DNA of 64,000 nt from an uncultured Paracoccaceae bacterium (GTDB lineage: Bacteria; Pseudomonadota; Alphaproteobacteria; Rhodobacterales; Rhodobacteraceae), in contig CANLQK010000006.1 in assembly GCA_947493255.1 (NCBI GenBank), positions 186,001 to 250,000 on the forward strand, given 5' to 3'. Below the pieces are notes generated by a model. It ran no database searches, was not told where the DNA came from, and saw only the letters and a program-made list of their open reading frames with translations. How positions within the stretch are numbered: the first letter of the stretch is position 1; each line of letters begins with the position of its first letter. The translations under genes were made by a program, and so were the position numbers. This document shows positions 3,975 through 6,773 of this stretch, one piece after another.

Positions 3975-4580
3975 TTAGACCCAAGGACGTTCGGCGGAAA
4001 CCTGTGTTTCGAATGTGTCGATAGAAGCGGCCTTTTCCATTGTCAGGCCGATGTCATCAAGACCATTCATCAAGCAGTGCTTTTTGAACTCATCAACTTC
4101 GAACGAGAATGTTTCGCCATCTGACGACGTGACGGTCTGTGCTTCAAGGTCTACAGAGATGCGTGCGTTCGCCCCCTTTTCTGCATCCTTCATCAGCACG
4201 TCACGCTGATCTTCTGGCAGAACGATGGGCAAAATGCCGTTCTTGAAACAGTTGTTATAGAAAATATCCGCGAAGGACGTTGAGATCACGCAACGGATAC
4301 CAAAATCGGCGATGGCCCATGGCGCGTGCTCACGGGATGACCCACAACCGAAGTTGTCACCCGCGACAAGAATAGAGGCTTCGCGGTAAGCTGGTTGGTT
4401 CAAAACGAAATCTGGGATTTCGTTGCCTTGGCGGTCAAAACGCATTTCATCAAACAGGTTCACCCCGAGGCCAGAACGTTTGATTGTCTTCAAGAACACC
4501 TTCGGAATGATCATGTCTGTGTCGATGTTCACCAGCGGCATTGGCGCGGCGATTCCGGACAGTTGGTCAAATTTTTGCAT
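3975..4580 (-). CDS. leuD: 3-isopropylmalate dehydratase small subunit
   Basis: LeuD pairs with LeuC to isomerise 2- to 3-isopropylmalate in leucine biosynthesis in the cytoplasm. From the ATG at 4580 the protein is 201 residues, the normal LeuD length. It shows the swivel-domain signatures [17 protein letters not shown] and [17 protein letters not shown]. The start is supported by an AGGA ribosome-binding site 7 nt upstream. The reading frame is open upstream without a stop as far as 5054, so a 359-residue fusion to a Tat-signal ORF is also encoded; the cause is a 22-bp duplication described separately. LeuD from 4580 should be made regardless of the fusion. Confidence 0.95.
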
Positions 4581-5054
4581 TGGAGTTTCCTTTCGGGGCG
4601 TTAACCCTTTGGAGCTTTCACGTTCATCTTTGTGAACGGATTGTTCATCAATTTCGTCAGTATGGGTCGGGTATTGCTCTGGTATGGGTTTGGTATTGCT
4701 CTGAACCTTGCTGGCGACCGTTTTCGCAGATGCGACAACGGAGCCTTTCGGGCGAATCCAAACCTGACTGCGGGCCCATTTGCCGGCTTTGGTTGTCCCC
4801 TGAAGGGGGCCCAAAATACCGCGCGATGACATATCACGCATCAGCTGTTCCGCCTGATCCATCCCTAGCCCCAACCGTTTGGCGAGGGTGAAGACAGAAA
4901 ACGAAACATCCGATTGCGCATGATAGATCGCCGCGTGAAGGGCGGAGGCGGGATAACCCGCCTTAGCCGCAGCACCAAGCGACGCGGACGGCAAAAGCGG
5001 GGCAGCGAAAGCACCCCCCAACATTTGCAAAAATCCGCGACGCTTCATGGTCAT
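4581..5054 (-). CDS. Tat-signal / winged-helix ORF between leuC and leuD, now fused in frame to leuD
   Basis: The ORF starts at an ATG sharing its A with the leuC TAA, so translation is probably coupled. Residues 4-10 (KRRGFLQ) plus a hydrophobic stretch and an alanine-rich site near residue 30 resemble a twin-arginine signal. Residues 35-84 ([15 protein letters not shown], then [16 protein letters not shown] and SSRGILGP) resemble the winged helix of the FtsK gamma domain, recognised by eye only. A basic linker follows. There is no stop before leuD; residue 159 is the LeuD initiator Met. Removing one copy of the 22-bp repeat at 4660-4703 restores a 143-residue product ending NVKAPKG with its TAA at 4601-4603. 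Function is unknown. Confidence 0.7.
4660..4703. repeat. Tandem 22-bp duplication inside the leuC-leuD intergene ORF
   Basis: Positions 4660-4681 and 4682-4703 are adjacent copies of the same 22-bp unit differing at only two bases (CG in the first, TT in the second). Because 22 is not a multiple of 3, the extra copy changes the reading frame. The unit codes for part of the linker of the Tat-signal ORF. The two base differences argue against a simple assembly error. Confidence 0.92.
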
Positions 5055-6457
5055 TACATCAAGTCCCGTACGTCTGTCAGTTTACCGGTAAGAGCAGCGG
5101 CAGCGGCCATACCCGGAGACACAAGGTGTGTCCGGCCTTTGTAGCCCTGACGGCCTTCAAAGTTCCGGTTGGAGGTGGACGCACAACGTTCGTCTTCGGC
5201 CAACTGATCTGGGTTCATGGCAAGACACATGGAACAACCAGCCATGCGCCATTCGAAACCTGCCTCTTTGAAGATGTCGGCAAGACCTTCTTCTTCGGCT
5301 TGTGCACGAACGAGGCCAGAGCCCGGAACGACCATGGCGCGATTGACCTTGATCTTTTTACCTTTGAGAACCTCAGCAGCGGCACGCAAATCTTCGATAC
5401 GGCCGTTGGTACAGGACCCGATGAACACCGTGTCGATTTCGATGTCTGTGAGTTTCTGACCAGCCTTCAGGCCCATGTATTCGATAGAACGCGCAGCGGC
5501 GTCGACTTTACCACCTTCAAAGGAAGATGGGTCAGGCACGACAGCGTCGATTGGCAGAACGTCTTCTGGAGATGTGCCCCATGTGACGGATGGCGCGATG
5601 TCTTCGCCTTTCAGCGTTACAACCAAATCCCATTCAGCGTCGTCGTCAGAGTACAGTGTTTTCCACCATGCTTCGGCGGCTTCCCATTCGGCGCCTTTTG
5701 GGGCGTGTGGGCGGCCTTTGCAGTAGTCGAATGTTTTCTGGTCTGGTGCGATCAGGCCAGCGCGGGCGCCACCCTCAATGGCCATGTTGCAGACGGTCAT
5801 GCGGCCTTCCATGGAAAGGTCTTCGATAGCTGTGCCACAGTATTCGATCACGTAACCAGTACCACCGGCGGTGCCGGTTTTTCCGATGACGGACATGGTG
5901 ATGTCTTTCGCGGTGACACCTGGTTTCAGGTGGCCCGTGATTTCGACCTTCATGTTTTTGGATTTCTTCTGGATAAGCGTTTGCGTCGCCAGAACGTGTT
6001 CGACTTCGGATGTGCCGATGCCGTGGGCCAGCGCGCCGAATGCGCCGTGGGTCGCTGTGTGGCTGTCGCCGCAGACAACTGTCATGCCTGGCAATGTCCA
6101 ACCCTGTTCAGGGCCAACGATGTGCACGATGCCCTGACGAACGTCGGACACGGGGTAGTAGTGGATACCGAAGTCTTTGGCGTTCTTGTCGAGCGCGTCG
6201 ACCTGAATGCGGCTGTCTTCGGTCATGGTTTCAGCGTTCGCACGGTCCAGCGTTGTTGGAACGTTGTGATCTGGAACAGCGATTGTTTTTTCTGGCGCGC
6301 GGACCTTGCGGCCCGCCATGCGCAGGCCTTCGAAGGCTTGCGGTGATGTCACTTCGTGCACGAGGTGACGATCGATGTACAACAGACATGTGCCGTCTTC
6401 GGATTCGTGGGCGACGTGGGCATCCCAGATTTTATCGTAAAGCGTTTTGGGGGACAT
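5054..6457 (-). CDS. leuC: 3-isopropylmalate dehydratase large subunit
   Basis: Aconitase-family 4Fe-4S enzyme, the large subunit of isopropylmalate isomerase. The ATG at 6457 ([15 protein letters not shown]) gives 467 residues, the family length, and has GGAGAGGAC just upstream; longer in-frame extensions are unlikely. Visible signatures: [37 protein letters not shown] and [12 protein letters not shown]; the Cys of the third and the two Cys of the fourth are the iron-sulphur ligands. First gene of leuC - Tat ORF - leuD, with a TAATG junction to the next ORF. Two hairpins lie in its 5' region. Confidence 0.97.
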
Positions 6458-6508
6458 GTGGTCCTCTCCCGTTATTAGTGTGGCTGTGGAGATGGCTTGG
6501 GTTTTGGA

Positions 6509-6529
6509 CACGCGGGACGAGCCCGCGTG
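6509..6529 (-). promoter_or_regulatory. Hairpin in the leuC leader
   Basis: Perfect 8-bp inverted repeat CACGCGGG / CCCGCGTG with a 5-nt loop, 52 bp before the leuC start. There is no T-run after it, so it is not a classical terminator; it could be an mRNA structure or an operator. Confidence 0.45.
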
Positions 6530-6549
6530 GAGATCATAGGTGTGCGAGG

Positions 6550-6568
6550 ATGGTGCAGGTTGCACCAT
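6550..6568. promoter_or_regulatory. Palindrome upstream of leuC
   Basis: Perfect inverted repeat ATGGTGCA / TGCACCAT with a 3-nt centre, 20 bp further from leuC than the first hairpin. The size and symmetry fit a dimeric regulator operator, or a second leader hairpin. The regulator is unknown. Confidence 0.4.
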
Positions 6569-6773
6569 AAAAGCGCCAAGGCAGGCGCGCGCGGTCATCC
6601 ATGTCGAAAACTTGTGTCATGGGGGTCAGATATACACGAAGACCGAGTCTCGCAAGGGTGATCGGGAAATCGGTTGTATTGCAGGGACCTCACCATTTGC
6701 TGAGAAAACGTTATTGGCACATAAGCGGGTCGTCGCAGAAAGTACCCCAAATTTCGTGGGAAAGGTCGGCATT

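Follow-up and report, generated by a model that had tools for sequence, protein, structure and literature searches.

Four-unit direct-repeat arrays in Rhodobacteraceae, one of them between leuC and leuD, as probable chromosome-wide protein-binding sites

The repeat that lies between leuC and leuD in an uncultured Paracoccaceae bacterium is probably one site in a chromosome-wide family of polar, mostly four-unit sites for one or more putative oligomeric, sequence-specific DNA-binding proteins. The window analysed is a stretch of 64,000 nucleotides (contig CANLQK010000006.1 of assembly GCA_947493255.1; this genome is referred to as G000), for which a preliminary description had attributed the repeat to a 22-bp tandem duplication that fused an upstream open reading frame (ORF) to leuD. 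Arrays of the same kind recur elsewhere in this genome and in its relatives, where they occur in two spellings, termed C and T. The features of the region, in window coordinates, are as follows.

3975..4580, minus strand: leuD, 3-isopropylmalate dehydratase small subunit, with its own ATG at 4580 (TIGR00171)
4581..4655, minus strand: spacer between array and leuD, containing GTTAAC at 4605-4600 and, at 4593-4586, the leuD ribosome-binding site AAAGGAAA
4656..4699, minus strand: C-spelling array of four 11-bp units (Tandem Repeats Finder and genome-wide pattern match)
4699-4689, minus strand: array unit 1, GCAATACCAAA, 11 bp
4688-4678, minus strand: array unit 2, CCCATACCAGA, 11 bp
4677-4667, minus strand: array unit 3, GCAATACCCGA, 11 bp
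4666-4656, minus strand: array unit 4, CCCATACTGAC, 11 bp
4716..5054, minus strand: codons 1-113 of the upstream ORF, which align with nine relatives; the start is Tat-like, and a domain has weak similarity to FtsK gamma (winged helix)
5054..6598, minus strand: ORF (start not curated) which we take to be leuC by recognition and from its place before leuD; its stop overlaps ATG 5054

Tandem Repeats Finder reported the repeat at 4660-4703 with period 22, 2.0 copies, 90% matches and a score of 74, the highest among its 11 rows for the window, and for the same region it also gave period 11 with 3.1 copies. The near-perfect 22-bp tandem repeat described earlier was thus confirmed, together with an 11-bp sub-period that had been missed. 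It is the same DNA as the array at 4656-4699 read in another phase, its 22-bp unit being a pair of 11-bp units, and its 22-bp appearance arises because the first unit is similar to the third and the second to the fourth. About seven conserved and four variable bases make up each unit, and 11 bp correspond to one helical turn. The loose two-unit pattern (up to two mismatches) is not in excess within the window (5 matches against 2.96 expected, with 15 of 100 shuffles reaching 5); at one mismatch, all 3 matches in the window fall within the leuC-leuD array.

On the scale of the genome (3.36 Mb), an exact run of three units (CMATAYN5 x3) was counted 59 times, against a chance expectation of about 0.006 by arithmetic with equal base frequencies. 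Up to two mismatches give 81 matches, including the 59 exact ones, and these were collapsed to 31 C arrays, 30 of which contain three exact units in succession; weak matches elsewhere, at least five in number, were not counted. When fetched and aligned, the C arrays mostly consist of four units in a fixed order: GCAATACCNRA, CCCATACYNRA, SCMATACCNRA, and CCCATAT. Ten of the 31 (class A: L090, L091, L095, L098, L099, L104, L105, L109, L112, and L114) lie within a longer repeat with GTTAAC boxes. Across a class A region that begins about 95 bp ahead of the array start and extends 150 bp beyond it, GTTAAC or TTAAC boxes stand at nearly fixed distances, and some members have a CACCGNNCGGTG-like palindrome.

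The C pattern was matched in 13 of 19 genomes of the genus, some of them with only one or two matches that may be due to chance, and G016 carries 35 arrays. Across the family, a four-unit C match was found in 37 of 394 genomes, nine of which have at least 10 overlapping matches, while among the weaker ones several resemble coding DNA or chance matches; in G232, 59 matches with CCAKAC units lie on one contig. The backward-pattern control is not independent for this spelling, as CATACC matches itself when shifted, and it was mostly zero for the four-unit form. An exact four-unit CCAKAC scan of the genome collection gave at least 120 stretches (L120-L239); among the matches listed, 68 come from Rhodobacteraceae or its genera and 52 from other or unplaced records. 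Therefore, the C pattern is not private to the family, since these 52 stretches among the matches listed are far above chance by arithmetic; this, too, counts against the explanation favoured here. The records outside the family, among the matches listed, include members of other phyla such as Granulicella, Paludibacteraceae, Prevotella, and Anaerolineae, with several stretches per genome. Exact array patterns also occur on viral contigs, in 21 stretches (17 C and 4 T; L388-L408).

The second spelling was found through the leuD site of G010 and reads TACATACNGGT TGTGTACAGGT TGTGTACGCNN TGTGCC (TGTGTAC units). With up to three mismatches, the T pattern was matched in 14 of the 19 genus genomes, some with one or two matches that may be due to chance, and the backward control gave 0-2 matches per genome. 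This genome has 14 T arrays, from 25 matches, so that the two spellings together make about 45 arrays, mostly of four units. One T array (G000:C6:250471-250499, L439) lies 471 bp past the end of the window, and the contig of the window therefore carries both spellings. At up to two mismatches, 13 of 120 genomes of the family contain the T pattern, whose variants include GTGCACG, and some other Rhodobacteraceae genera have arrays of both spellings. The genus member G008 gave no match of either spelling, which is counted against the explanation favoured here. The presence of two spellings in one genome suggests that there may be two readers.

That the arrays are DNA sites is indicated by their positions in related genomes. 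A comparison by translated flanks of 172 arrays from seven genus genomes resolved 84 addresses, 37 of which are common to two or more genomes. All 181 pairs of arrays from different genomes that agree in both flanks keep their orientation, the pairs not being independent of one another; three quasi-palindromic T arrays were re-stranded before this count, and the pair L412/L470 was not used because their address merged unlike places. Both spellings are represented at 26 of the 37 shared addresses, to which class A contributes none of its ten arrays. G000 has C where G015 has T at four addresses, and T where G009 has C at three; the LeuD proteins of G015 and G009 are 96% and 91% identical to that of G000. 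In flank comparisons between C and T, the register agrees within 1 bp modulo 11 in 122 of 171 cases (27% would agree if uniform; the comparisons overlap), and the same-spelling controls gave 47 of 64 for C-C and 59 of 89 for T-T. Therefore, what is kept is a DNA site, since its place, its orientation and mostly its register survive a change of spelling.

Individual addresses illustrate this exchange. At the address of a HAD gene, compared in 17 genomes, four have C and seven, as well as G011, have T; G009 has an apparently decayed T array (by eye), and nothing was found in G007, G008, G010, and G013. The valS gene carries an array in its coding frame, as T in G000 and G006 and as C in G001 and G009; between conserved flanks, the insert reads RAHTGPISDPYPTHIT where the spelling is C and, in G000, SVHTGGAQDVYALCPE. 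An ABC-transporter gene likewise carries an array in its coding frame (C in G016, T in G006 and G014), and the peptides differ; at a third such address the frame is open in G001 and G016, and not in G006 or G014. Since the peptide changes with the spelling inside valS and the ABC-transporter gene, it is the DNA and not the peptide that is kept. Conservation at the DNA level is also seen at leuD, where the 44-nt array is identical in G000, G009, and G015; LeuD synonymous sites differ by 0.57-0.63 among these three species, and the spacer between array and leuD has 2-5 differences in 78 nt.

At leuC-leuD itself, a search with the upstream ORF and the linker in 100 relatives and this genome matched 15 of the 101 genomes; in ten genus members other than G000, the ORF occupies the same place. 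Both repeat copies and the same 359-codon frame are present in G009 and G015. G005 also has an open frame that connects this ORF to leuD (353 aa), through a different linker that contains no array (L009, L291), and in the remaining seven the ORF stops before leuD. A leuD search matched 17 of the 19 genus genomes. A C array stands in the leuC-leuD spacer of eight of them (G000, G009, G015, G001, G011, G012, G016, and G018) and a T-like array in that of G010 (by eye) and G006 (also a T-pattern match); no clear array was seen there in seven of the 17 spacers (G003, G005, G007, G008, G013, G014, and G017). The upstream ORF ends before the array in G001, G012, G016, and G018, and in G011 the array lies between leuC and leuD without the ORF. 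By eye, many of the 17 spacers (L280-L296) also show GTTAAC boxes on the leuD side of the array, and in several genomes two such boxes are spaced by 22 bp. Twenty-nine leuD loci from other genera were also inspected, in 21 of which a script located the end of leuC (8 were not parsed); leuC-leuD arrays were seen in G107, G056, and G057 (the last by eye), and none was shown in the other members of this set. In the array test, G107 clearly passed, and G056 and G038 passed against shuffles but not against other lags. The G056 array is backed by the separate T-pattern scan; the G038 case is not so backed and is not array-like.

The fused reading frame was confirmed on the minus strand, open from ATG 5054 to the leuD stop (3975-5054, 359 aa). 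Residues 159-343 match TIGR00171 with 254 bits against a cutoff of 116, which identifies them as LeuD, and the normal start at ATG 4580, with its own ribosome-binding site, stands as described. The upstream part does have a Tat-like start and runs in frame into leuD, as had been proposed, while its DNA-binding-like domain is only weakly similar to a winged helix: the best profile matches are FtsK_gamma (E=0.0025) and TAT_signal (E=0.65), both below the Pfam gathering level. Residues R5 R6 G7 F8 L9 are invariant in 10 sequences, and codons 1-113 have pN of 0.02-0.04 against pS of 0.26-0.37, which indicates constraint on the protein. A paralog of this ORF, 29-36% identical, is present in 12 of the 19 genus genomes, and G050, from another genus, has four tandem relatives of it about 1 kb upstream of leuD (loci for both: L012, L016, and L027 (G050:C43), and L013, L014, L017-L026, and L028). 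The ORF was considered as a source of the array-binding protein, which is unlikely, because G011 has the array without the ORF, and G003, G005, and G013 have the ORF without a clear array there.

According to the preliminary description, a 22-bp tandem duplication joined a separate 143-residue gene to leuD, giving a second and possibly exported form of LeuD. The frame is open, and the arithmetic was reproduced, the +1 frame ending in NVKAPKG and a stop; moreover, the fusion is maintained across three species whose LeuD synonymous sites have diverged strongly, as well as in G005 with its other linker. However, the repeat and the long frame are shared with G009 and G015, which the description itself had named as grounds for refutation, and arrays stand beside separate ORFs or where the ORF is missing. 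The array is thus independent of the upstream ORF, so that the duplication account fails, and G005 demonstrates that fusion of the frames does not need the repeat. A separate upstream protein is borne out in so far as the ORF stands apart from leuD in seven of the ten other genomes, but all seven end in tails other than NVKAPKG, the supposed ancestral ending. Changes after the array among the fused species (1-3 of 2-5 nonsynonymous) give no sign of selection on the protein, although these numbers are small. Recent duplication as the cause of the fusion was therefore rejected and is hardly credible; the leuC-leuD array is a feature of its own and not a product of duplication. The fused frame is most simply explained by read-through across an array that is stop-free in the frame concerned. 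In the G000 lineage, the upstream ORF no longer has the stop and tail with which it ends in relatives, and since the array is also open in the resulting frame, the frame reaches leuD. A long LeuD product of the fused frame is possible, and the fusion would be incidental to the array.

Ordinary operators, by which one or two transcription factors of the OmpR/PhoB type (or LexA-like) would control adjacent genes, are a strong rival reading of the arrays, though one less likely than not. A LexA-like repressor in Alphaproteobacteria recognises direct repeats spaced by 11 bp, and PhoP of Streptomyces is said to bind 11-nt direct repeat units. ArcA sites contain between two and five direct repeats spaced by 11 bp (PMC3798270), and the arrays resemble operators of the OmpR/PhoB family in having direct repeats at this spacing, one helical turn per protomer. 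In addition, 24 of the 35 arrays of G016 have a downstream gene in the sense direction, often starting 14-60 nt away. However, 6 of the 35 are antisense to both neighbours, and three lie deep inside a gene (32 do not). Sites also occur in the leuC-leuD spacer, within valS and downstream of 3' ends, and the neighbours, which by recognition we take to be lpd, acs, icd, trmFO, serS, valS, argG, cysG, rpoA-rplQ, leuCD, and yebC, look functionally mixed. Unlike operators of that family, the arrays have mostly four units, they lie in operon spacers, at 3' ends and in coding sequence rather than in promoters of a coherent gene set (as judged from gene calls and recognised names), and their two spellings exchange at fixed addresses. 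The contexts in G016, from a simple codon-usage script, are tandem in 18 sense and 6 antisense cases, divergent-type in 4 and convergent in 4; the tandem contexts of G000 are 9 sense and 9 antisense, and those of 62 other Rhodobacteraceae loci (5 from Pseudooctadecabacter) are 18 and 9. The sense lean in G016 and in these other loci is not predicted by architecture alone. A gene caller placed 60 of the 62 loci outside genes, but no claim is made from this since 51 of 52 non-Rhodobacteraceae matches were also outside.

The same sense bias would suit an RNA element, in which C-rich, G-poor arrays with an 11-nt period serve as Rho utilisation or leader binding sites; the C spelling is C-rich, and the period is near the spacing of Rho contacts. 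Such an element is nevertheless very doubtful, since the T spelling is not C-rich, arrays occur inside genes, 10 of the 35 arrays in G016 are preceded by a gene on the opposite strand, which does not fit a Rho-bound transcript, and Rfam found only two tRNAs, and no other known RNA family, in 14 loci. It is improbable, though less so, that the arrays are selfish or neutral dispersed repeats which copying keeps similar, with shared addresses as inherited insertions. Some copying of elements did occur, as the longer repeat of class A and its absence from shared addresses indicate, and arrays are missing or apparently decayed at some addresses, as beside the HAD gene in G009. But copying fails to account for the 26 addresses at which two spellings share their place, orientation and mostly register, for the spelling changes in valS, or for the 44-nt identity across species with LeuD pS near 0.6. 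REP/BIME elements are short, dispersed, mainly intergenic repeats with a palindromic unit; the arrays are likewise short, dispersed and mainly intergenic but are made of in-phase direct units of fixed polarity, lack a palindromic unit and have addresses shared between species. The TAACTGA repeats of Beggiatoaceae, Cyanobacteria, and Bacteroidetes are contiguous 7-bp direct repeats of one spelling that stand mostly just before start codons in the best-studied genome (PMC4679880). They too form many short direct-repeat sets that are mostly intergenic and show no functional pattern in their neighbours (PMC4679880); the arrays differ from them in unit sequence, in their 11-bp period, in having two spellings, and in addresses common across species.

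In the explanation favoured here, that of sites for a putative binding protein, an oligomer with sequence specificity would contact the same helix face through four consecutive turns, a geometry for which ArcA sites provide a precedent. The function we prefer is one at chromosome scale, in nucleoid association, anchoring or segregation, because the neighbours are mixed housekeeping genes, because operon spacers, gaps between convergent genes and gene interiors all contain sites, and because their spacing is partly even. The coefficient of variation of the spacing is 0.47 in G000 (P=0.0004), 0.50 in G016 (P=0.0001), and 0.72 in G232 (P=0.019), which is more even than random. For all 45 arrays of G000, one interval is shorter than 15 kb against 7.05 expected (P=0.0025); both spellings without class A gave P=0.0013, and class B alone P=0.053. 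Even spacing was not seen in G001, G107, G006, and G014, and as a general property it was rejected. The orientations in G006, after re-stranding, follow a replichore-like split into two arcs (29 of 35, P=0.005), which was not seen in G014, G232, G107, and G360; general replichore polarity was rejected, as G006 alone of the five genomes fits. The matS site is a single palindrome confined to the terminus region. The arrays resemble matS/MatP and other chromosome-organising sites in forming tens of sites at intervals of tens of kilobases, and they differ from matS in being polar and spread over the chromosome.

Among the matches listed from the open-licence literature, no description of these arrays was found. 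It may tentatively be proposed that Octadecabacter and many other Rhodobacteraceae possess an addressing system of some 20-50 fixed, polar, four-turn putative sites with two interchangeable spellings and two related oligomeric readers, in which a site could change its reader and keep its place, direction and helical phase. For annotation, it should be borne in mind that stop-free arrays can lengthen or fuse reading frames, as at leuD. If the arrays are the sites of a chromosome-organising protein, they would provide a ready target map in a major marine bacterial family. They would also constitute a natural experiment, in which the same site at the same place has two spellings between relatives, even inside a tRNA-synthetase gene, and would allow one to ask how the recognition sequence can change across an entire network of sites.
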